This document shows positions 7,768-38,589 of a stretch of 64,000 bases of DNA, in pieces. The stretch's first letter is position 1, and each line of letters starts with the position of its first letter. Made by a program: the position numbers and the translations under genes. Source of the DNA: Stutzerimonas stutzeri. GTDB lineage: Bacteria > Pseudomonadota > Gammaproteobacteria > Enterobacterales > Pasteurellaceae. The notes under the pieces are model-generated. The model was given only the letters and a program-made list of their open reading frames with translations, was not told where the DNA came from and did not search any database. The stretch spans positions 1,860,001-1,924,000 of the forward strand of contig CABDVE010000001.1 in the NCBI GenBank assembly GCA_901420285.1, given 5' to 3'.

Positions 7768-8913
7768 CTAATTTGGCTTCCATTCCCCATTTAACACGCT
7801 GCCAATCACTTCATAATTTTCCGTAAATACCGCAAGATTCGCCACTTTGCCTTTTTCCACGGAACCTAAACGGTCATCCACGCCAATAGCGCGAGCCGGA
7901 TAAAGATTACTCATTCGGAGGGCTTCAGCAAGCGGAATTTCGACATATTCCACTGCATTTCTAACGGATTCGATCATCGTAATCGAGGCTCCGGCGATGG
8001 TGCCGTTAGCGTCATAACAGCGTCCGTTTTTCACATAAATAGTTTTCCCCACGAAGGTAAAACGCTCCAATTCAGGGCCGGCACCGGCGGCGGCTAAAGA
8101 GTCAGTGACGATACAAAGTTTGTCGCCTTTGATCTTTTTATCAATACGCACATTACCGAAATTCACATGTACGCCATCTACGATAATTCCCGTATAGACA
8201 TCGGAATCCAGCACCGCACCCACGACCCCCATAGCACGACCGGAACTGATTGGCGACATCGCGTTGTGCAAGTGCGTAGCAAAACTTGCGCCCTTGCGGA
8301 ATGCGTCTTTCGCTACTTCATAGGTTGCATTGGAATGCCCGACGGAAACGATAATACCACTTTTCACAAAGTCAGGTGTGTAATTAATGGTCGGATTTTC
8401 AGCTGCAATAGTAATTTTCGTAATTACATCAGCATTTTCACAAAGAAAATCTTTCATTTCCGATGTAATTTCACGAATATATTCCGGACGGTGTACCCCT
8501 TTTTTCTCTACGCTGATAAACGGGCCTTCAATATGTAAGCCAAGTGCTTGATTTTTATGCTTATTTAAATAATCATGCATAATCTTGACCGCACTTTTGA
8601 TATTTTCATCGGGCGCTGTAATAAACGTCGGGAGAAAACTGGTGCAACCCGATTTTAAATTGGTGGCTTGCATAATTTCTAAGGTTTCCACACTGGTTTG
8701 ATCGTTAAACATCACGCCGCCACAGCCATTAAGTTGTAAATCAATAAAGCCCGCGGTTAAATTATTACCTTGTAAATCAATGGTTTTAATATCTGAATTC
8801 AGTTCATTTTGCGGAATTACGGCATCAATGATTTCGCCGTTAATCACTACCGCGTAATCGCGCAGCACATCATATTTTGTGTAAATGACACAGTTCGTTA
8901 ATGCGTATTTCAT
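7768..8913 (-). CDS. nagA: N-acetylglucosamine-6-phosphate deacetylase
   Basis: NagA removes the acetyl group from GlcNAc-6-P, giving GlcN-6-P and acetate. It is the penultimate step in breaking down sialic acid and GlcNAc. Family motifs are visible in order: LQLNGCGG (N-terminal metal region), HIEGPFIS with the metal-binding Glu, GHSNATY, THLHNAMSP, and VTDSLAAAG with the catalytic Asp. Length 381 is normal. It is the last gene of the nan operon, 57 bp after nagB, with a short USS pair (8943 region) between them. Confidence 0.95.
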   Translation of the reverse strand: MKYALTNCVIYTKYDVLRDYAVVINGEIIDAVIPQNELNSDIKTIDLQGNNLTAGFIDLQLNGCGGVMFNDQTSVETLEIMQATNLKSGCTSFLPTFITAPDENIKSAVKIMHDYLNKHKNQALGLHIEGPFISVEKKGVHRPEYIREITSEMKDFLCENADVITKITIAAENPTINYTPDFVKSGIIVSVGHSNATYEVAKDAFRKGASFATHLHNAMSPISSGRAMGVVGAVLDSDVYTGIIVDGVHVNFGNVRIDKKIKGDKLCIVTDSLAAAGAGPELERFTFVGKTIYVKNGRCYDANGTIAGASITMIESVRNAVEYVEIPLAEALRMSNLYPARAIGVDDRLGSVEKGKVANLAVFTENYEVIGSVLNGEWKPN

Positions 8914-8970
8914 ATTCCCTTCCTAAAAATCTGTTAAAAAATAACCGCACTTTCGTGCGGTGTTGTGAGA

Positions 8971-9777
8971 TTATGAGAGCACGCTATGGATCGCGTGTTG
9001 TTCCAATTCATTAAAATATTTTACCGTTTTCACTTTTAGCTCTTGTTGTGCCGCTTCATCGCACACCAAAATAAAGTGTCGATGTAGCTGCAATGCGGTC
9101 ACCGTCCATAAGTGGTTTACGGAACCTTCAACCGCTGCTTGTACCGCGAGGGCTTTTTGATGACCGGTGGCGAGAATCATCACTTCTTCCGCATCTAACA
9201 AGGTTGCCACGCCAATGCTCAAAGCATATTTCGGTACTTTATTAACATCGTTATCAAAGAAACGAGAATTGGCAATCAAAGTATCTTGCGTTAATGTTTT
9301 AATCCGCGTGCGAGAACTCAACGAAGAAGCGGGCTCATTAAAAGCGATATGACCATCAACGCCGACGCCACCCATAAACAAATTAATTTTTCCGTAAGAT
9401 CTGATTTTTTCTTCATATTGACGACATTCTTCGTCATGATCGGCGGTATTGCCGTTCAAAATATGAATGTTTTGCGGTTGAATATCCACATGATTGAAGA
9501 AATTGTTATACATAAAGCTATGATAACTTTCCGGATGATCTTCCGGTAAACCGACATATTCGTCCATGTTAAAGGTAACAACATATTTAAAACTCACCTC
9601 GCCGGCTTGATAAAGTTTGATAAGTTCCCGGTAAGTTTTAAGCGGCGTTCCGCCTGTCGGCAAACCTAATACAAACGGGCGCTCCGCTGTCGGTTTAAAA
9701 TGATTGATACGATCGACGATATGACGCGCCGCCCAACGACTGACTTGTTGCTCTGTGGTTAGAGGGATAAGACGCAT
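8971..9777 (-). CDS. nagB: Glucosamine-6-phosphate deaminase
   Basis: NagB converts GlcN-6-P to fructose-6-P and ammonia, feeding amino sugars into glycolysis. Motifs are GLPTGGTPL (phosphate loop), NMDEYVGLP with the catalytic Asp pair, and [10 protein letters not shown]. The frame is open upstream to 9855, but ATG at 9777 is preceded by AAAAGGAGC at the right distance and gives MRLIPL, the normal N terminus, and 268 residues against 266 in E. coli. It lies between nanA and nagA in the sialic acid operon. The 169-bp gap to nanA contains one CAATGCGGTGCT word at 9853. Confidence 0.95.
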
Positions 9778-9946
9778 AGTTAAGCTCCTTTTATTTTGAC
9801 CGATGCCGTTTTCCGTTATAAAGAATGTACGGAAAGCGGAAAGAAGGGGCTCCAATGCGGTGCTAATTTGACACTCCGTTGCACCTTTGCCCCTGTTGCT
9901 TCCGCATAAACAGAAGACGATATACTTCAGTCAATTTTCCATTAAT

Positions 9947-10825
9947 CTATAAAAATTTTGCTTTTAATTCTTTTGCTTTGGCAAGTTGTTCCGGCGTTGC
10001 TTTGGCCGTCATCGGTTCGCGACAATAACCGGCTTCTACACCGTCAAGTTTTAACAATTCTTTGATAGTTAAATATAAGCCGTTTGCCAAAATGCCTTCG
10101 ATTAAATCATTTGTCACGTGTTGAATTTCAAGAGCTTCTTTGATTTTACCGGCTTTTGCCAATTCGAAAATTTGACGAGCGCGTACACCGTTGACGTTAA
10201 AGGTTGAACCAATCGCGCCGTCCACGCCTAAAGAAGCGGCCGGTAGCATCATTTCATCGAAACCGGCCCAGATTAAGTGGTTCGGATAAGCTTTTTTCAA
10301 GCGTTCCAACAAATAGAAATCACCTGCGGTGAATTTCACGCCAAGCACTTTTGGGTTTTTATACAATTCGCCGAATTGCTCGATACCCATATTCACACCG
10401 GTAAGAAACGGAATCGAATACACGATCATATTGTTACCGGTCTCGTCAATGATGGTATTGTAGTAATGCTTAATTTCCGGGAAGGTGAACTTGTAGTAAA
10501 ACGGCGTGACCGCAGAAAGGCTGTCGTAACCTAGTTCGGTGGCGTATTTACCGAGTTCTACCGCCTCTTTTAAGTTTACACTACCCACTTGAGCGATAAG
10601 CGCTACGGCATCTTTGGCTTCATCTTTGGCAATACGGAAGATTTCTTTCTTCTCTGCGGTAGAAAGCATAAAGTTCTCACCGGTGGAGCCGCCTACATAT
10701 AAGCCGTCCACTTTCATTTTGTCGATGTTATAACGAATAATTTGGCGCAATCCTTTTTCATTGATCGAACCGTCTTCGTTAAATGACACTAATAATGCAC
10801 TGAAAATACCTTTTAAATTACGCAT
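9947..10825 (-). CDS. nanA: N-acetylneuraminate lyase
   Basis: NanA is an aldolase that splits N-acetylneuraminate into ManNAc and pyruvate. The 292-residue TIM barrel carries the pyruvate-carboxylate motif GGSTGE (about 45-50), the catalytic Tyr136 in VYSIPF and the Schiff-base Lys164 in GVKFTAG. It is the central catabolic step of the cluster. It starts 9 bp after the siaR stop codon, with Shine-Dalgarno AGGAGA, so the two are probably co-transcribed. Confidence 0.96.
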
Positions 10826-10834
10826 AATTTTCTC

Positions 10835-11701
10835 CTATTTTATACGTTGTTCTAGAATGACATTGAGCGTTTTTTGCTTCGTTTCTACCGCTCGTTCCTG
10901 TTCGCCTTGCACCAGTAAAGCGTAAATTAAATCTAATACAAAAAGCTGGGCGATTTTGGTACCAATGGAATCCCCTTGTAATTTTCCTTGTTTGTTGCCG
11001 TTCACCAACACATAATCTGCCGATTCGGTCACCGGCGAACGTAAACTATGGGTAATTGCAACAGTTGTTGCGCCATTTTGCTTGGCTATTTTTAGTGTAT
11101 GAGCCGTTTCTTGCGAATAACCCGAATGGCTAAGGCCAATAGCAACATCATTAGGCTTCAACAATGCTGCTTGCATATACATAAAATGATTATTGCCCGT
11201 AGCATCCACTTGAAAGCCAATACGCATCAATTTATTTTTCGCTTCTTCCGCCGTAATACCGGAAGATCCCGCTCCGCATAAAAAAATGCGATTAGCCTGT
11301 CGAATCGCAGCAACAACACCTTCTAATTGTTTGAAGTCCAATAAATTAATCGTTTCATTAACGACATTAGAAATCGAACTCTGCAATTTTTGCGCGATAT
11401 GAAAAGAACTGTCATTATGAGTAATATCCGTTTCCAATAGCGGATTATTGCGATTGTCTTTCGTGGCAAGTTCAATGGAAAGTTCCAGTTTAAAATCACT
11501 AAACCCCTTAAATCCCACGGAACGGCAAAAACGTACAAACGTTGCCTCTCCTACATCCAAATGCTCGGCAATTTCTGAAAGAGGACACTGTACGACAAGA
11601 TCCGGTGACATTAAGATCGTGTCGGCAATTTTTTTCTCGGTTTTGGTTAAGCTTTGATACAAAGAGCTAATCGTATTCAATACATTGCCGTTTCTAGCCA
11701 T
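10835..11701 (-). CDS. siaR: RpiR-family sialic acid regulator SiaR
   Basis: SiaR is the transcriptional regulator of sialic acid uptake and catabolism. It has an N-terminal RpiR helix-turn-helix (about residues 1-77, SEIAEHLDVGEATFVRFCR) and a C-terminal SIS sugar-phosphate-binding domain (LCGAGSSG to LSHSGYSQET). In H. influenzae it responds to GlcN-6-P and works with CRP. The frame extends to a TTG at 11719, but ATG at 11701 has GGGAGG six bases upstream and gives 288 residues, the length I recall for H. influenzae SiaR. The start overlaps the 3' end of nanK by 8 bp. Confidence 0.93.
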   Translation of the reverse strand: MARNGNVLNTISSLYQSLTKTEKKIADTILMSPDLVVQCPLSEIAEHLDVGEATFVRFCRSVGFKGFSDFKLELSIELATKDNRNNPLLETDITHNDSSFHIAQKLQSSISNVVNETINLLDFKQLEGVVAAIRQANRIFLCGAGSSGITAEEAKNKLMRIGFQVDATGNNHFMYMQAALLKPNDVAIGLSHSGYSQETAHTLKIAKQNGATTVAITHSLRSPVTESADYVLVNGNKQGKLQGDSIGTKIAQLFVLDLIYALLVQGEQERAVETKQKTLNVILEQRIK

Positions 11702-12599
11702 ATCTCGCCTCCCAACCAACTCGAGCTAATAAAATATCTTTCACCCAATAGGCGGCACCAACTAATCCGGCATCTTGCTCAAATCGAGCCGATTCAATTT
11801 CGCAACGATAAATTTCCGGCATTTCATCAAGAAAACGGCGAATCAAGGGCAAATATCCTTCAGCCAAGCCAACACTACCGCCGACCACGACTTTTTGCAT
11901 ATCCAAACTAATTTTTAAATCAGCGATTAAATTAGCAATCGCGCGCGCAGAACGCTCTATAAGGGCGATTGCTTTCTGGTCATTTTTTCTAAAGCGTTCA
12001 AATACTTCTTTGGGCGAACAGGGAACATCCCAAGTCGAGGCTTCAGCCTCAATAGCCCGCCCGGCCGCCACTGCTTCTACACAACCACGCCGACCACAAC
12101 CGCATTCAGGGCCGTTCGGATCGGCAAGTGTATGTCCAATATGACCAGCAATACCATTGGGGTCGGTCAAAAGTTGGCGGTTCACAATCAATCCTCCGCC
12201 AACACCTGTTGAAACGGTTATAAACGCAAAATTTGTTAATTTACTTTGATCTTGCAGCTGATATTCTGCATAAGCAGCCGCCTGAACATCATTCAGCAAG
12301 CCTATTGGTTTATCGGTATGACGGGCAATGCTTTCTTTTAACGGAAATTCCGCCAAGCCACCTAAATTTTTAGGATTCAGAGCGGTTAAAATACCGTGAT
12401 TTATTATGCCGGTAGATGCGACTGCAACATAATCAAACTGCCCCGCATAATCCATTAATAGTTGCGCAAGCGCATTATGCAATGCATGCGCAGCGTTATC
12501 TTGTGGCGTAGCGATTTGTTGGCGTTGGATAATTTCGCCATCCTTGACGATGGCCGCTGCAATTTTTGTACCGCCGATATCAAGAGCTAAACAACGCAT
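11694..12599 (-). CDS. nanK: N-acetylmannosamine kinase
   Basis: NanK phosphorylates ManNAc to ManNAc-6-P with ATP. It is a ROK-family kinase of 301 residues: phosphate loop DIGGTKIAAA (about 7-16), catalytic Asp in LLNDVQAAA, the ROK zinc motif GHTLADP followed by CGCGRRGC, and GGSVGL near the C terminus. It lies between nanE and siaR and overlaps the siaR start by 8 bp, which suggests translational coupling. Confidence 0.94.
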   Translation of the reverse strand: MRCLALDIGGTKIAAAIVKDGEIIQRQQIATPQDNAAHALHNALAQLLMDYAGQFDYVAVASTGIINHGILTALNPKNLGGLAEFPLKESIARHTDKPIGLLNDVQAAAYAEYQLQDQSKLTNFAFITVSTGVGGGLIVNRQLLTDPNGIAGHIGHTLADPNGPECGCGRRGCVEAVAAGRAIEAEASTWDVPCSPKEVFERFRKNDQKAIALIERSARAIANLIADLKISLDMQKVVVGGSVGLAEGYLPLIRRFLDEMPEIYRCEIESARFEQDAGLVGAAYWVKDILLARVGWEARYG

Positions 12600-12632
12600 A
12601 AGTCATCCTTTTCTTGTTTCAATAATGAAGAA

Positions 12633-13319
12633 CTATTTCGCTGATTTCACCGCCGCTGCAAACCAACTTACGAGATGTTCAAGACGCGTCAGCGCCGAAC
12701 CGACAGTCACGAAATCAGCTCCAATTTCAATTGCAGTTTTGGCAAGTTCAGGCGTGTTGTAACGGCCTTCCGCCATAACGCGGCAACCGGCTTTCTTGAG
12801 ATCTTTGACCAGTTGATAATCAGGTTCTTTAGGCACTACGCCACCGGTATAGCCCGACATCGTGCTACCGATAATATCAAAACCCAATTTTTGACAATGT
12901 AAGCCTTCTTCTAAATTGGAGCAATCTGCCATCGCAAGACAACCTAATTCATGGATTTTCTTAACTGCACTTTCAAGCTCAACCGGACGCGGACGATGAG
13001 TTCCATCTACCGCGATAATATCCGCGCCGGCTTTAGCAAGCGCTTCAATGTCGTGCAAGAAGGGAGTAATCCGAATTGGGCTATCTGACAAATCGCGTTT
13101 TACGATACCAATAATCGGTACCTGTACGGTTGGCCGAGCAGCCTTTAAATTTTCAACACCTTCAATACGAATACCGGCCGCTCCGCCAATAACGGAAGCT
13201 TGTGCCATGGCGGCGACGATTTCCGGCTTATCCATCGGGCCGTCATCTACCGGCTGGCAAGAAGCGATTAAGCCATGTTGAATGCGTTGAAAAACCTGTT
13301 CATGTGATAATTTAGACAT
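12633..13319 (-). CDS. nanE: N-acetylmannosamine-6-phosphate 2-epimerase
   Basis: NanE converts ManNAc-6-P to GlcNAc-6-P. It is a 228-residue TIM barrel of the NanE family with the motifs [34 protein letters not shown] and [11 protein letters not shown] near the substrate site, and VTVGSALTR at the phosphate end. As the first gene of the leftward operon, its upstream region (13320-13622) is the likely regulatory centre shared with divergent siaP. Confidence 0.95.
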
Positions 13320-14609
<1,290 letters not shown>

Positions 14610-14678
14610 TACGCTTATTCGTGTGCCTGTTTCGGCAGGCACGCGTTTTCTCTCCTTTATTATTCAACGGAGTTGAAT

Positions 14679-16529
14679 ATGAAAATCTTTAATAAACTTG
14701 AAGAATGGATTGGTGGCACGTTATTCCTCGTCATATTCTGCATTCTTGTTTTACAAATTCTGTTCAGACAAGCCTTTCATTCTCCATTAATCTGGAGTGA
14801 AGAACTCGCAAAATTGTTATTCGTTTATGTGGGGATGCTGGGTATTAGTGTTGCCATCAGAAAACAAGAACACGTTTACATCGACTTTCTCACCAACTTA
14901 ATGCCGCCTGCAGTCAGAAAAATTACAAATTCTTTTGTGCAGCTAATCATTTTCCTTGGTGTGATTTTCTTTATCCACTTTGGTATCAAAACCTATATAG
15001 GCGCCAGTTTCCCAATTGATGCCTTAGGCGGTATTTCTGAAAAATGGATCTATGCCTCCCTGCCGATCATTTCCATTTTAATGCTGATTCGTTTCTTCCA
15101 AGCGCAAGCAGATAATTTCAAAGATAATAAAAGCTATTTGCCGGTAACCTTCTTTATCGTAAGTGCGGTCGTTTTATTGGGTATTTTATTCTTGGCCCCT
15201 GACTGGTACAAAGTCCTACGCGTAACCGAATATGTCAAATTCGGTTCCAATGCAGTCTATGTGGCATTGCTCTTCTGGTTAGTCATCATGTTCTTGGGCG
15301 TGCCGGTGGGTTGGTCATTATTCATCACTACTCTGCTCTATTTCTCCATGACCCGTTGGAATGTGGTGAACGCCGCTTCTGAAAAACTCACCATGAGTTT
15401 GGACAGTTTCCCACTTCTTGCCGTGCCGTTCTATATTCTCACCGGAATTTTAATGAATACCGGTGGTATCACCGAACGTATCTTTAACTTCGCCAAAGCC
15501 TTACTTGGCCACTACACCGGCGGTATGGGACACGTTAATATCGGTGCAAGCTTGTTATTCTCCGGTATGTCCGGTTCTGCACTTGCCGATGCGGGTGGTT
15601 TAGGTCAATTGGAAATCAAAGCCATGCGTGATGCAGGCTATGATGATGACATCTGCGGCGGTATTACAGCAGCATCTTGTATCATCGGTCCATTGGTTCC
15701 ACCAAGTATTGCCATGATCATTTATGGTGTTATCGCAAACGAATCCATTGCAAAACTCTTTATTGCCGGGTTCGTACCGGGTGTATTAGTCACTATCGCG
15801 CTCATGGCAATGAACTACTACATCTCCCAAAAACGTGGTTATCCAAGAACACCAAAAGCTTCTCGTGAAGAACTTTGCTCTTCATTCAAAAAAGCATTCT
15901 GGGCAGTTTTAACTCCAATTTTGATTATCGGCGGTATCTTCTCCGGTTTATTCAGTCCGACAGAATCTGCGGTGGTTGCAGCAACCTATTCTGTAATTAT
16001 CGGTAAATTCGTCTATAAAGAATTAACCTTGAAAATGCTCTTCAACAGCTGCGTGGAAGCGATGTCCATTACCGGTGTTGTTGCATTAATGATTATGACC
16101 GTCACCTTCTTCGGCGACATGATCGCCCGTGAACAAGTGGCAATGCGTATTGCCGATGTGTTCGTCGCCGTGGCGGATTCGCCTTTAATGGTACTGGTGA
16201 TGATCAATGCCTTATTATTGTTCCTCGGTATGTTCATTGATGCGTTGGCTCTACAATTCTTAGTGTTACCAATGCTGATTCCAATCGCTATGCAATTTGG
16301 TATTGACTTGGTATTCTTCGGCGTTATGACAACCTTGAACATGATGATCGGTATCTTAACCCCACCGATGGGAATGGCATTATTTGTGGTCGCACGCGTG
16401 GGTAACATGTCTGTGTCCACCGTAACGAAAGGCGTATTACCATTCTTAATCCCGATTTTCATGACCTTGGTGTTAATCACCATCTTCCCAAGTATCATCA
16501 CATTCATTCCGAATTTGTTAATACCTTAG
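14679..16529 (+). CDS. siaT: Fused sialic acid TRAP transporter membrane protein SiaT (SiaQM)
   Basis: SiaT is the sodium-driven inner-membrane part of the sialic acid TRAP transporter. The N-terminal ~170 residues are the four-helix DctQ domain. A linking helix then joins the large DctM domain (about 190-616), which has the characteristic GMSGSALAD and GPLVPPS hairpin motifs. The frame opens at a TTG (14673), but ATG at 14679 with ACGGAG six bases upstream is preferred; the result is 616 residues. It follows siaP by 69 bp. A USS-pair hairpin after the stop may attenuate reading into nanM. Confidence 0.95.
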
Positions 16530-16536
16530 GACACTA

Positions 16537-16577
16537 AAAGTGCGGTTGTAAAACGCAGTAAATTTGAACCGCACTTT
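16537..16577. terminator. USS-pair hairpin between siaT and nanM
   Basis: Two Hin-type uptake words in opposite orientation, AAAGTGCGGTT (16537-16547) and AACCGCACTTT (16567-16577), can form an 11-bp stem. It is eight bases past the siaT stop. The T run is short, so termination is probably partial. Confidence 0.55.
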
Positions 16578-16647
16578 CTTACCCTACACATAAAAGACCT
16601 ATTCTGCCGTTGACGAATAGCCCAAATCACTCCAAACGAGGTTTATT

Positions 16648-17781
16648 ATGAGATTTCAAAAAACAACATTAGCCACCCTCTTCTTAGCGGCAACCACTTT
16701 TGCTGTAACCGCGCACGCTGCCGCTTACCCTGATTTACCGGTGGGCATTAAAAGCGGTGCCGGTGCATTAATTGGCGATACCGTTTATGTAGGCTTAGGT
16801 ACAGGCGGCGATAAATTCTATGCGTTAGATTTAAAAACCCCGAACGCCCAATGGAAAGAAATCGCCACATTCCCGGGCGGTGACCGTAACCAACCGGTGG
16901 CAGCGGCTGTTGACGGAAAATTGTATGTCTTCGGCGGATTACAAAAGAATGAAAAAGGCGAATTGCAATTCGTCAACGATGCCTACAGCTACAACCCGGC
17001 CGATAATACCTGGAACAAATTACCAACCCGCTCGCCACGCGGTTTAGTTGGTTCCAGCGGCGCTTCTCACGGTGATAAAGTGTATATCGTGGGCGGTTCT
17101 AACTTGTCTATTTTCAATGGTTTCTTCCAAGACACCGTTGCGGCAGGCGAAGACAAAGCGAAAAAAGACGAAATCGCCAAAGCGTATTTTGAACAACGTC
17201 CGGAAGATTACTTCTTCACCACAGAATTATTAAGCTATGAACCGTCGACCAATAAATGGCGCAACGAAGGTCGCGTACCATTCTCCGGTCGTGCCGGTGC
17301 GGCATTTACCATTCAAGGTGATGATTTAGTTGTCGTGAACGGTGAAATCAAACCGGGCTTGCGTACGGCAGAAACCCATTCCGGCAAATTCACTGCGAAA
17401 GGCGTTCAATGGAAAAACTTACCTGATTTACCGGCGCCAAAAGGTCAAAGCCAAGATGGTTTAGCGGGGGCGATGGCAGGTTACAGCCACGGTCATTACT
17501 TAGTTACCGGCGGTGCAAACTTCCCAGGTTCCGTGAAACAATTTAAAGAAGGTATGCTTCACGCCCATAAAGGCTTAAGCAAAGCCTGGCATAAAGATGT
17601 TTACACGTTGAATAAGGGTAAATGGAATATCATTGGAGAATTACCAATGAATATTGGCTATGGTGTATCAGTTTCTTACGGAGATAAAATCTTGCTTATC
17701 GGCGGTGAAACTGATGGCGGAAAAGCACTAACATCAGTGAAAACTATGAGTTATGACGGTAAAAAATTAACTATTGAATAA
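16648..17781 (+). CDS. nanM: N-acetylneuraminate epimerase (sialic acid mutarotase) NanM
   Basis: NanM is a periplasmic mutarotase that speeds interconversion of alpha and beta Neu5Ac before uptake. A signal peptide (AVTAHA, about 24 residues) precedes a six-bladed Kelch propeller. Blade motifs are visible as [24 protein letters not shown] and DKILLIGGE, with the conserved GG doublets. Length is 377 residues. Its position after siaPT matches H. influenzae. It has its own AGG-type ribosome site. Confidence 0.93.
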
Positions 17782-33418: not shown

Positions 33419-34380
33419 TCGATTTTCGCCCTTTTTATCAACAAATCGCTACAAGTTCTTTATCTGATTGGTTGGAAACGCTTCCCCTTCAATTAAAAGA
33501 ATGGGAAAAACAAACCCACGGTGATTACGCTAAATGGTCAAAAATTGTAGATCTTCTGCCCGATTTATCGGCCGACAGCATAGAACTCAACGAAGGTGTC
33601 AAATCGCACCGCATTGAAGCCTTGTCGGACGGGGAACAACAACGCATCATCCATCATCTAAAACAACTCATGCCGTGGCGCAAAGGTCCGTATCACTTGT
33701 TCGGCATTCACGTAGATTGTGAATGGCGTTCCGATTTTAAATGGGATCGCGTGCTACCTCACCTTGCGCCACTACAAGATCGGGTTATTTTAGATGTCGG
33801 TTGTGGCAGCGGTTATCATATGTGGCGGATGCTGGGTGAAGGCGCCAAAATGGTAGTGGGCATTGACCCGACCGAGCTTTTTCTATGTCAATTTGAGGCG
33901 GTGCGCAAACTGCTCAATAATGATCGCCGCGCTAATTTGATTCCGCTCGGCATCGAGCAAATGCAACCGCTTGACGCATTTGATACGGTATTTTCCATGG
34001 GCGTGCTTTATCACCGCAAATCGCCTTTGGATCATTTAACTCAGTTGAAAAACCAACTGAAGGCAGGCGGAGAATTAGTATTGGAAACCTTAGTGGTGGA
34101 CGGCGATGTCAATACCGTTTTAGTGCCTGCAGAGCGCTACGCGAAAATGAAAAATGTGTATTTTATTCCGTCTGTTGCGGCACTCATAAATTGGCTGGAA
34201 AAAGCTAACTTTCGCAATGTCCGCTGCGTAGATGTGGCAACCACGACACTCGAAGAACAACGCAAAACCGATTGGCTGGAAAATGAAAGCCTTATTGATT
34301 TCTTAGATCCAACGGATCACAGTAAAACTGTTGAAGGCTACCCAGCGCCGAAAAGAGCGGTAATTTTGGCGAATAAATAA
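33415..34380 (+). CDS. cmoB: tRNA U34 carboxymethyltransferase CmoB
   Basis: CmoB uses carboxy-SAM to make cmo5U34 in tRNA wobble positions. The 321-residue protein has an N-terminal helical part and a SAM-type Rossmann fold with motif [16 protein letters not shown] (about 124-138). [11 protein letters not shown] and VYFIPSV are typical of CmoB. A strong AAGGAGG lies before ATG 33415, and the start overlaps the putP stop. The partner cmoA is not in the window. Confidence 0.95.
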
Positions 34381-34386
34381 CGAATT

Positions 34387-34416
34387 AAGGGAAATGGCAT
34401 TATCTATTTCCCTTTT
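34387..34416 (+). terminator. Terminator after cmoB
   Basis: AAGGGAAAT (34387-34395) pairs with ATTTCCCTT (34406-34414), followed by TT. It isolates the restriction-modification genes from cmoB. Confidence 0.75.
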
Positions 34417-34439
34417 GTTTGGCTTAAAAAGGAAAATAC

Positions 34440-36304
34440 ATGGCAAATTTATCTCAATTAAAACGCGATAAAATGCTCAATTTCTTAAAAACGCTCAAAG
34501 AAACGCATTCAGATGATGCTTCCATTATTGCGCTCAATGAAATTGAAAATGCACTGTTAAATAAAAAATATGGTTTAATTTGGGAAGAACATTCCGAACA
34601 CGTAGATAATATGCTAGAAAAACATATCCCCGTGTTTATTGAAGATACGACACGCAAAATTGTCGCTTCCGATTGTCCAGCGATTGTCCAGCGATTGTCC
34701 AGCGATTGTCCAGCGATTGTCCAGCGATTGTCCAGCGATTGTCCAGCGATTGTCCAGCGATTGTCCAGCAAGATTTTGAAAAATTTAACTTCCTAATTCA
34801 AGGGGATAATCTTCATTCTTTAAAACTTCTTGAAAAAACTCACCGAAATAAAATCGATGTTATCTACATCGATCCTCCCTACAACACCGGCAATAAAGAT
34901 TTTATCTATGATGACCATTACATAGATAAAAATGATGGCTACGCACACTCTAAATGGCTTTCTTTTATGAGTAAGCGGTTGGAAATTGCGCGAAATTTAT
35001 TAAGTAAAACCGGCGTTATTTTTATTTCTATTGATAATAATGAATACGCAAATCTAAAATTACTCTGCGATCAAATCTGGGGAGAGAGCAATTTCGTTAC
35101 AACAATTCATATTGAATTATCAGCAACACAAGGAATGAAAGTAAAAGCAGCCAAGGAAGGAAATATAGTTAAGAATGGAGAATACATATTAGTCTATAGC
35201 ACTAGCCAAAATAAAAAAATAGGATTAGTTCAACTAAAAGATCCTGTGGAATATGATAATCACTATAATATTTTTCTAGAAAAAAATGATGAATATTATT
35301 TAGAAACTCCATTAAGTGAAGTATTGATAAAAAACAAAGAAATATACAATGAATTATCTTCTTTAAGAATGCTATCTAAAAAAAACAAATTGTCAAACAA
35401 TAGTATTTCAAAAATATATAAAAAGAGTGAATTAATAAGAAACTTTATTAATAAAAATGCAGATAGAATCTGTAGAACTCATGATACTATTGATATAGAT
35501 AAAACATTTATAGAAAAAATGAAAGAAAATTATGTTTATCAATATAACACTGATAATAGAAGCTACTTAGTAGCTCTACATAAAAATGGGGTATTTCAAA
35601 AGATCCTATTTTCAGAAAAACTTGATTATGCTGATGATTTTTATTCTACTTTCGGACCAACAAGAATTAGAGGAGACTGGTGGTCTGGTTTTTATTTAGA
35701 CATGGGAAATGTAAAGAAAGAAGGTAAAGTAGAATTCAAGAATGGTAAAAAACCTATTAGACTAATAAAACAAATAATCAAGTTTTCAGCCCCTAAGAAT
35801 TCAATTATCCTCGACTTCTTCGCCGGTTCTGGTACTACAGGACACGCCGTCGCCCAACTGAATAAAGAAGATGGTGGAAATCGTAAATATATTCTTTGCA
35901 CTAATAATGAAAATAATATTTGCGAAGAGGTAACATATCAAAGGCTAAAGAATATTCAGACAGAGTTGCCGCATAACCTGAAATATTTCAAAACTGACTT
36001 TATTAAAAAGTTTGATGAAAATGACCGCACTTTAAAAGCGCAACTGATGGATTACATCAAAGAGCTTATTGAGCTGGAATATATGTGTGAAATTGATGGT
36101 GTGAATAATATTCTCGCCAAAAATGAATCGGAATTAGATGCGGTGCTGAATGAGGATTTACCAATAAAAACTCGACTTTTTATTGCGCCTTATGTCTTAC
36201 TTTCTCGTGCACAAAATGCTTTAGTCGCAAGAAAGCAAGCCACACTCATTGAAATTCCCGAATATTATTTCAGACATGAACTTATTGAGGCGGGTGAACT
36301 ATGA
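34440..36304 (+). CDS. mod: Phase-variable type III DNA methyltransferase Mod, currently out of frame
   Basis: Mod methylates adenine in an asymmetric site and provides specificity to Res. ATG 34440 (AAGGA upstream) opens a type III Mod N terminus of ~77 residues, then reads nine 11-bp repeats and stops at 34796. The rest of the protein lies in the frame two bases on: DPPYNTGNK (motif IV, about 34871), the recognition domain (about 35100-35780) and LDFFAGSGTTGHAV (motif I, about 35808). Only a TTG inside the repeats (34673) could start that part. With 8 or 11 repeats the frame joins to 617 or 628 residues. So as sequenced it is phase OFF. The stop overlaps res as ATGA. Confidence 0.88.
34670..34768 (+). 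repeat. Nine tandem copies of an 11-bp repeat in mod
   Basis: The unit CGATTGTCCAG is repeated nine times without a mismatch. Because 11 is not a multiple of three, each copy gained or lost shifts the frame. Three copies encode an 11-residue period (SDCPAIVQRLS), and the tract has no stop in any forward frame that I can see, as expected for a translated contingency tract. Confidence 0.98.
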
Positions 36305-38589
36305 TCAACCTTCAATTAAAAGATTTCCAACAACAAACCGTTGATTTCTTATTAGAAAAAACTACAGAACAATATAAACAACAGCAACAAATTATTGTGA
36401 AAAGCCCGACGGGCAGTGGCAAAACGATTATTTTAATCAGCTATATTGAAAACTATTTGCGCAATTATCCCAACACGATTTTTTGCTGGTTTAGTGTGGG
36501 AAAAGGCGATTTGGAAGAACAATCAAAAGAAAAAATGGAACGGTTCTCCCCCGCGCTTCCAACAAGCAATATTGCTGATCTGCTCAATCAAGGTTTTGAA
36601 TGCGGCACCACTTATTTTATTAACTGGGAAACCATTACGAAAAAAGGTAATTTAGCCTTAAAAGAGAGTGAACGTAAAAATATTAAACAGCATATTGCCG
36701 ATGCGCACCGCAGTAATAAAGAATTTATTGTGATTATTGATGAAGAGCATCTCAATAATACAGCAAAAGCCAATGATATTATTGAGGCCATTAATGCCAA
36801 TTATGAAATTCGTGTTTCTGCCACACCGGCACAAAATAAAAAAGCCGTTTTCTATGAAATTGATGAAGTAGATGTGATTAATGAAGGATTAATCACACGT
36901 GCTATGTATATCAATAAAGATCTCAATGCCAAAACCGTAGAAAATATTCAAACAGAGACCGTTCTTTTATTAAAAAAAGCCAATGAGATTAGAAAAGAAA
37001 TTGCTACGGCGTATTTGCAAGAAAATGAAGATATTCGCCCTTTAGTGCTAGTGCAATTCCCGAATCTCAATGATGAATTAATTGAATTTGTAGAAAATCA
37101 ATTGGCGGATATGGGCTATACCTATGAAAACAAACTGGTCGCCAAATGGATGAGCGAGGAAAACACGCAAGATAAACAACGCAAATCCAAAAAACTGGGC
37201 AAAATTAATGTGGGCGAAATTAATAACAATGACAGCATTACGCATAATAATGCAGAACCTGTCTTTTTGTTATTTAAACAAGCCCTTGCCACAGGCTGGG
37301 ATTGTCCACGCGCCAAAGTGTTGGTAAAACTGCGTGAAAATATGTCTGAAACCTTTGAAATTCAAACGCTTGGACGCTTGCGCCGGATGCCGAATGCAAA
37401 ACATTACGGCAAAGATATTCTGGATTGTTCTTATCTTTATACTTTTGATGAAAACTACAAAAATGAAGTCACCGGTAATCATCTTGGCGCAGAATATAAA
37501 CGTGTTGTGCTGAAAGATGAACCGAAAAGTATTGAGCTGAAAAAAGAACTGCGCGATAAAGATGCGGATTTTGGTGATGAAAGTGCGGTCAGAAAACAAC
37601 TTTTTTCTTTCATTAAAGAAAAATACAAACTTACCGATGACAGTAAAGAAAATGAAAGACGATTCCAAAATCAAGGCTTCAAACTGCATGCTTACCTTGA
37701 AGCCCATTATTTAGAAGGTCGATTCGAAACTTTGAAGAAAATTCAGGAAGAAGCAGCACATTATCAAGGAAAAAGTATGCAATATGGAGTAAATACGCAC
37801 GATCACGGTTTATATTTACGTCATCATATTGATAGTTTGAAAAAATATACCGGATTAAGTTATGAGAAAACACGACAGCTACTCGAAATTTATTTCTTAA
37901 AAGATGCCGGCGAACCAAAATTTAAATTACTTCATCTTTCATTGAAAAATTTCTATGCGTTTATTATTAATAATGTGGATAAATTTAAAACGCTTTTTAT
38001 GGATTTTTCTTCTTTCTCCTCCAAAGCACAGCACAATTTAAATTTAGGTGATTATAATCAAATTCGACTCGAAAAATTTTCTATTCCGATTGAGGAAATG
38101 TATCCCATTGATAGCCTGGCAAAAGAGAAAAAACTATTAGCCCGCAATGTTTATCATGATTACAACTTTGCCATGATTGCCGGCACGTTGCGTTCCACCA
38201 GTGAACGCCTTTTTGAACGTAGCTGCGAGCAAAATTCCAATGTGAAATATGTGTATAAAAACGGTGATTCCGGACAAGATTATCTTTCCATCGTTTACAC
38301 CACCCAATTTGGTAAACAACGCTTATTTTTCCCTGACTACATCGTACAAACTCAAGATGGCACGACGTGGTTACTGGAAACCAAAGGTGGCGAGCAAGCC
38401 AACGGACAAGATAAAAATATCGACAAACATGCCAAAGTGAAATTTAATGCCCTGCAAGATTTTTGCCAAAAACACGGCTACAAATTTGGTTTTGTACGCG
38501 ATAAAGATGGCGAACTTTATTTAAATAATACGGAATATGTCGATGATATGTCGGATGCGCAATGGAAACCTTTGAGCGAATTTTTTTGA
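36301..38589 (+). CDS. res: Type III restriction endonuclease subunit Res
   Basis: Res is the ATP-dependent translocase and nuclease subunit, active only with Mod. The 762-residue protein shows superfamily 2 helicase motifs: Walker A SPTGSGKT (35-42), motif II DEEH (about 141-145), motif III RVSATPA, and motif VI QTLGRLRRMP. A C-terminal PD-(D/E)xK nuclease site reads PDYIV (Asp679) and ETKGG (Glu693, Lys695). All motifs look intact. The start overlaps the mod stop, so expression may depend on mod translation. Confidence 0.94.
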   Translation: MINLQLKDFQQQTVDFLLEKTTEQYKQQQQIIVKSPTGSGKTIILISYIENYLRNYPNTIFCWFSVGKGDLEEQSKEKMERFSPALPTSNIADLLNQGFECGTTYFINWETITKKGNLALKESERKNIKQHIADAHRSNKEFIVIIDEEHLNNTAKANDIIEAINANYEIRVSATPAQNKKAVFYEIDEVDVINEGLITRAMYINKDLNAKTVENIQTETVLLLKKANEIRKEIATAYLQENEDIRPLVLVQFPNLNDELIEFVENQLADMGYTYENKLVAKWMSEENTQDKQRKSKKLGKINVGEINNNDSITHNNAEPVFLLFKQALATGWDCPRAKVLVKLRENMSETFEIQTLGRLRRMPNAKHYGKDILDCSYLYTFDENYKNEVTGNHLGAEYKRVVLKDEPKSIELKKELRDKDADFGDESAVRKQLFSFIKEKYKLTDDSKENERRFQNQGFKLHAYLEAHYLEGRFETLKKIQEEAAHYQGKSMQYGVNTHDHGLYLRHHIDSLKKYTGLSYEKTRQLLEIYFLKDAGEPKFKLLHLSLKNFYAFIINNVDKFKTLFMDFSSFSSKAQHNLNLGDYNQIRLEKFSIPIEEMYPIDSLAKEKKLLARNVYHDYNFAMIAGTLRSTSERLFERSCEQNSNVKYVYKNGDSGQDYLSIVYTTQFGKQRLFFPDYIVQTQDGTTWLLETKGGEQANGQDKNIDKHAKVKFNALQDFCQKHGYKFGFVRDKDGELYLNNTEYVDDMSDAQWKPLSEFF

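Follow-up and report, generated by a model that had tools for sequence, protein, structure and literature searches.

Phase-variable Type III methyltransferase (mod) genes, in which a simple sequence repeat (SSR) within the coding region switches the reading frame, are known from several bacteria. The ModA phasevarion of Haemophilus influenzae and Neisseria combines a coding repeat that follows the 5' region with an adjacent res gene, a swapped central recognition domain and interspecies transfer (PMC3311624). MmyCI of Mycoplasma mycoides subsp. capri also carries a coding repeat, with stops in both wrong frames and an overlap of mod and res, and an OFF clone was found together with ON progeny (PMC3498834). 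ModS of Streptococcus suis and related streptococcal mods show repeat-driven frame switching and distinct target recognition domain (TRD) alleles (PMC8125046), and in M.Btr188III of Bibersteinia trehalosi, a member of the Pasteurellaceae, the methyltransferase frame depends on repeat copy number and the site is methylated solely in the strain with the in-frame gene (PMC4996451). SSRs are borne by 17.4% of Type III mod genes (cited in PMC7394358). The locus described here is a mod-res operon in a stretch of 64,000 nucleotides (the window) from a Stutzerimonas stutzeri assembly (GCA_901420285.1, contig CABDVE010000001.1, positions 1,860,001 to 1,924,000), in which mod contains a tandem array with an 11-bp unit.

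A comparison of this mod with the described systems reveals that the switching principle, the position after the N-terminal domain and the swapped recognition domain are not new, and that the 11-bp unit is new as far as the literature was searched. The array very probably switches Mod, and hence restriction, on and off through its copy number, and mod is OFF in the nine-copy assembly. The features of the locus, in window coordinates, are as follows.

34440 to 34796, plus strand: 5' open frame of mod at nine copies, encoding the OFF product (N-terminal domain, repeat peptide and 8 further residues; 118 aa)
34440 to 34661, plus strand: conserved Mod N-terminal domain (about 74 aa), from matches in genomes of the family
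34670 to 34769, plus strand: tandem array of 9.1 perfect copies of CGATTGTCCAG, from Tandem Repeats Finder (TRF)
34772 to 36304, plus strand: catalytic and target-recognition part of mod (510 codons, then a stop), in a frame that differs from that of the start codon
35102 to 35731, plus strand: variable central region of 210 codons, likely the TRD, from weak identity to the mod of genome G079 between conserved flanks; the borders were set by the analyst at fixed distances
36301 to 38589, plus strand: res, Type III restriction subunit, 762 aa, no internal stop
34387 to 34414, plus strand: terminator-like hairpin between cmoB and mod, from a consensus scan

The first-pass annotation of this DNA, which was made from the letters alone, had proposed that nine perfect 11-bp copies break the mod frame, so that translation from 34440 meets a stop at 34796 and the catalytic part lies in another frame, and both proposals hold. 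The array is reported by TRF at period 11 with 100% matches and the top score of 5 rows (minimum score 40), and the longest period-11 run comprises 89 matches, compared with 7-9 in 20 shuffles of the window bases. The ATG at 34440 is preceded by AAGGA. The frame of the catalytic part, which ends at 36304 and overlaps the res start by 4 nt, has stops at 34607 and 34640, and between 34640 and 34775 it contains no ATG or GTG, only TTG (34673, 34706 and 34739) and ATT codons within the repeats, none of which by eye has a ribosome-binding sequence ahead of it; OFF is thus the plain reading of mod in the assembly, as had been claimed. Both out-of-frame states stop soon 3' of the array, at the TAA of 34794-34796 in the present frame and at the TGA of 34777-34779 in the third.

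Copy-number arithmetic from 4 to 14 copies places mod in frame at 5, 8, 11 and 14 copies, with 606, 617, 628 and 639 codons, respectively, and out of frame at nine, which bears out the earlier prediction that 8 or 11 copies restore 617 or 628 codons. The unit length is not divisible by 3 and the array lies in the coding frame, as expected of an SSR phase-variable mod. The 11-residue period of the encoded peptide, which had been singled out as special, is not, because any 11-bp unit read in codons yields one.

The identification of the gene as a Type III mod is also upheld. The ORF 34673-36304 matches PF01555 (E 4e-32), its best PADLOC model is MTase_III (E 1e-123), and it contains the DPPY and FFAGS motifs of the N6-adenine methyltransferase class. 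Its sequence relatives in the PDB (5 matches) include 6k0w, an adenine-specific Mod, Mbo45V (7dsu) and EcoP15I Mod (4zcf). Res matches PF04851 (E 1.6e-16) and REase_III as the best PADLOC model (E 3e-20), carries the helicase and nuclease motifs GSGKT, DEEH and PD...ETK, and is related to EcoP15I Res (4zcf_C, E 1e-7). With N6-adenine Mod motifs, a central recognition domain and an adjacent helicase/nuclease res, the operon is predicted to encode a Type III restriction-modification system. The 118-aa frame matches no Pfam or NCBIfam family.

In the proposed mechanism, the coding array sits in the short linker that leads from the Mod N-terminal domain to the methyltransferase domain, and copies would be gained or lost by slippage or inter-repeat recombination, which would move mod among three frames, of which one is open and two are closed; as 11 is not divisible by 3, the frame changes with each copy added or removed. 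Full-length Mod would result when the copy number is 2 modulo 3 (5, 8, 11 and so on), and the other two classes would end within about ten codons of the array. In the ON state, Mod would methylate and, with Res, restrict, and the OFF state would leave the 118-residue N-domain fragment. Res restricts only in complex with Mod (PMC3311624); because Res requires Mod for recognition and the res start overlaps the mod stop, restriction should be off as well. We infer from the sequence that copy number changes in living cells, that the ON Mod methylates and that switching affects the behaviour of the cell. If the switching is real, methylation and restriction would be toggled at random in a bacterium with one N6_N4_Mtase (Pfam) gene above the cut-off, a second match in the genome lying below it. 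An 11-nt loop should escape mismatch repair, and the switching rate would then be independent of mutator state. A hairpin formed by the array was considered as the cause of instability and rejected, as 200 of 200 shuffles fold at least as well.

Natural alleles in other genomes agree with the frame arithmetic. The Mod N-terminal domain (74 residues) is matched at E<=0.001 in four of 140 genomes of the family, namely the source genome, G079, G110 and G097. In G079, which belongs to a different genus, mod carries eight full copies of the CGATTGTCCAG unit and is open for 575 codons, as predicted for that copy number; this natural allele supports eight copies as an open state. Copy number thus differs in nature, at eight copies (open) in G079 and nine (closed) in the source genome. 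In Pasteurella oralis (G110; L026/L125), the same linker position holds 7.7 copies of another 11-bp unit, GCGAACAGCGA, and mod is OFF and requires the opposite frame correction; the three sampled arrays together occupy all three frames. The mod of G097 is open and has no 11-bp array. A scan for the array pattern returned one of 394 genomes of the order, whose listed sample does not show G079, and two of the 140 family genomes.

At their best rotation, the CGATTGTCCAG and GCGAACAGCGA units share 7 of 11 letters, a value reached by 818 of 20000 shuffles, and at a divergence of 24% a unit would be at least as dissimilar in 5143 of 20000 cases; the two 11-mers may be related or unrelated to each other. 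A class of long-unit switches in the Pasteurellaceae, in which the 11-bp length (coprime to 3 and open in all frames) stays constant and new unit sequences replace old ones across the array, is suggested tentatively and seems unlikely. If it existed, both 11-mers would descend from one old selected array that was borne between genera by the operon, and SSR surveys, being limited to short units, would have missed the class. A survey of H. influenzae counted units of 1-9 nt only (PMC2651432), and similar surveys would miss coding arrays of at least 10 bp.

The position of the array was compared across 109 mod loci, after five known duplicate rows of 114 had been dropped. Both the N-terminal part and the N-part of the catalytic domain are present in 76 of these, and the linker between them measures 21 nt in 45 loci and 24 nt in 17 (together 62 of the 76). 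The linkers of the source window, G079 and P. oralis are 122, 111 and 106 nt long, respectively, and the array thus represents an enlarged form of a linker that otherwise has 7-8 residues. The remaining 11 linkers measure 22 (two), 27, 30, 51, 84, 132 and 159 nt, and in three loci the parts align far apart. Both 22-nt linkers, from mods of uncultured bacteria (L069 and L078), are one base out of frame, and that of L078 includes eight consecutive A; this represents either a sequencing error or a homopolymer switch. Repeats with a unit of at least 2 within -450..+60 of the catalytic start occur in 22 of 113 rows (duplicates included), of which seven represent the three 11-bp places and 15 have 4-, 5- or 7-bp units. 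L097 seems to carry a double ACAGC array, but a run of unreadable bases interrupts it and it was not used.

The differences from the described systems lie mainly in the unit and its surroundings. ModA has a 4-bp unit, and in the loci L099 and L100 ("modA-like" being the analyst's label) the repeat and the catalytic part lie about 54 residues apart, whereas the source array abuts it. The source mod falls outside the modA family, having an 11-bp unit and an N-terminal domain that by eye begins MANLSQ instead of the MKTDIQ of L099 and L100. An array placed after the N-terminal domain was discarded as a novelty, because these two loci share it. Expression effects are proven for ModA and hypothetical for the source mod. 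The MmyCI unit is an AG dinucleotide, and methylation and cleavage were experimentally shown in that system (PMC3498834). M.Btr188III carries a 5-bp ACAGC repeat at the N-terminus (PMC4996451), in contrast to the 11-bp linker array. In the streptococcal loci L060 and L050, unlike in the source mod, the arrays (4- and 7-bp units) lie outside the linker, at -429..-322 relative to the catalytic part. The first-pass annotation had called an 11-bp unit unusual, and it is so within the literature searched, where no 11-bp unit in a mod was found; that coverage is partial, with the main Type III mod SSR survey outside it, and absence from print cannot be claimed.

Other arrays were seen beside mod genes during this comparison. 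Pasteurellaceae mod-like genes carry 5-bp arrays upstream of the catalytic part, namely GCTCA in L106 (1238-1322, x17), L107 (1263-1322, x12) and L118 (1268-1322, x11), AGCAC in L101 (993-1047, x11) and CAACG in L116 (1276-1310, x7). In related streptococcal mods the arrays lie upstream of the N-terminal domain (L060 2572-2671, AGCA x25; L050 169-268, AGCAACA x14; L016 1-55, CAACAAG x8).

The ratio of nonsynonymous to synonymous substitution rates (dN/dS; NG86, source genome against G079) is 0.088 for the first 110 catalytic codons, 0.16 for the last 188 codons of mod (the C-terminal part) and 0.068 for res (761 codons), and mod and res are under purifying selection between the two genera. The central region matches G079 at only 33 of 118 aligned residues, between flanks that are conserved, which is the mark of a swapped recognition domain. 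The operon has different neighbours in G079, P. oralis and G097 than in the source genome, and BLAST of 18-19 kb around each operon finds mod-res alone in common with the window. In G129, a genome of the same species, cmoB is present (99% over 1023 bases) and the operon is missing; cmoB is followed by two res remnants, an internal fragment of 56 bp and the 3' end (L135, matching window 34434-38544), which points to loss of the operon there and to a species polymorphic for its presence. Five plasmid records contain the N-terminal domain, all less than 60% identical, and none of the 25 plasmid records with a DNA match to the mod-res operon covers 80% of it. In viral contigs, the array pattern gave 0 stretches, and the 22 pattern stretches for the N-terminal domain included none confirmed as a relative.

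Several observations weigh against a working switch. The alleles with 8 and 9 copies belong to different genera, have largely unlike recognition domains and are not isogenic, and the array is known from one genome of the species, the sole other conspecific examined (G129) being without the system. The activity of the ON allele is read from motifs, and in NCBIfam neither Mod nor Res reaches the cut-off of any family. A scan of 34150-34700 gave no sigma-70-like site for the presumed transcription of mod; the hairpin upstream of mod is weak, as the consensus scan found 1 and shuffles average 0.6 (sd 0.8). Additionally, the dN/dS of 0.084 for the N-terminal domain is a rough ratio, with dS near saturation at 1.37.

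The purpose of the switch can be read in two ways of equal standing from the gene content, as a phasevarion or as a restriction gate. As a gate, the switch would serve bet-hedging, with phage or foreign DNA kept out in the ON state and DNA let in when OFF, and any expression change would be a side effect; it has the same mechanism as the copy-number switch proposed above and another purpose, so the confidences are not exclusive, and it is given not quite an even chance. Res is full length with its helicase and nuclease motifs and is strongly constrained, which favours this purpose, and it has been suggested that phase variation of Type III systems allows the DNA barrier to be lifted for a time (PMC3498834). 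On the other hand, published accounts of known Pasteurellaceae systems, modA of H. influenzae and ModP and ModQ of A. pleuropneumoniae, describe them as phasevarions, and regulatory and restriction roles may coexist. The window contains 12 exact AAGTGCGGT cores and 2 of ACAAGCGGT, both of which we take to be uptake-signal cores; the 12 suggest a competent host, which would also suit a gate.

The remaining explanations fare much worse. A miscount in the assembly or consensus, with the culture mostly at 8 or 11 copies and Mod ON, is improbable: repeats are the usual sites of miscounts, but this array is perfect and just 100 bp long, the two-contig genome is rated 100% complete, and an error would alter the present state without abolishing the switch. 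It is about as improbable that the allele is fixed OFF and heading to decay, with an array that no longer varies. The loss of the operon in G129, with res fragments left, fits such a course, as does the finding that none of the 14 other genomes of the genus searched matches the N-terminal domain. However, except for the break at the array, the catalytic part of mod and res read through without interruption, their dN/dS values are low, the copies are perfectly identical and an open allele with the CGATTGTCCAG unit exists. Least probable of all is an OFF state that is not null, in which the array TTGs, recurring every 33 bases in the catalytic frame along with ATT codons, start a truncated Mod or the 118-aa fragment has a role of its own, because by eye no Shine-Dalgarno-like sequence precedes these TTGs and the modelled fragment is poor overall (mean predicted local distance difference test score, pLDDT, 66.6; predicted template modelling score, pTM, 0.32), although pLDDT is 75-87 in the first 40 residues.

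With regard to the genomic context, the GC content is 42%, and this value, the AAGTGCGGT and ACAAGCGGT counts and the SiaP and second-contig matches given below suggest, short of proof, that the source belongs to Aggregatibacter. At 7768-17781 of the window lies a cluster that includes a sialic-acid binding protein of the SiaP type (PDB match), and the neighbouring products read, by inspection only, as NagA, NagB, NanA, NanK, NanE, SiaQM and NanM. The closest solved relative of this SiaP is 9bhf/9bh3 (624 bits), the SiaP of A. actinomycetemcomitans (PMC11550005), compared with 605 bits for H. influenzae SiaP. The second contig of the source assembly (L123, G000 contig 2, 3313 bp) is plasmid-like and up to 99.9% identical in part to small plasmids of H. 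influenzae and H. parainfluenzae, and four 22-bp direct repeats at its positions 1120-1206 resemble replication iterons.
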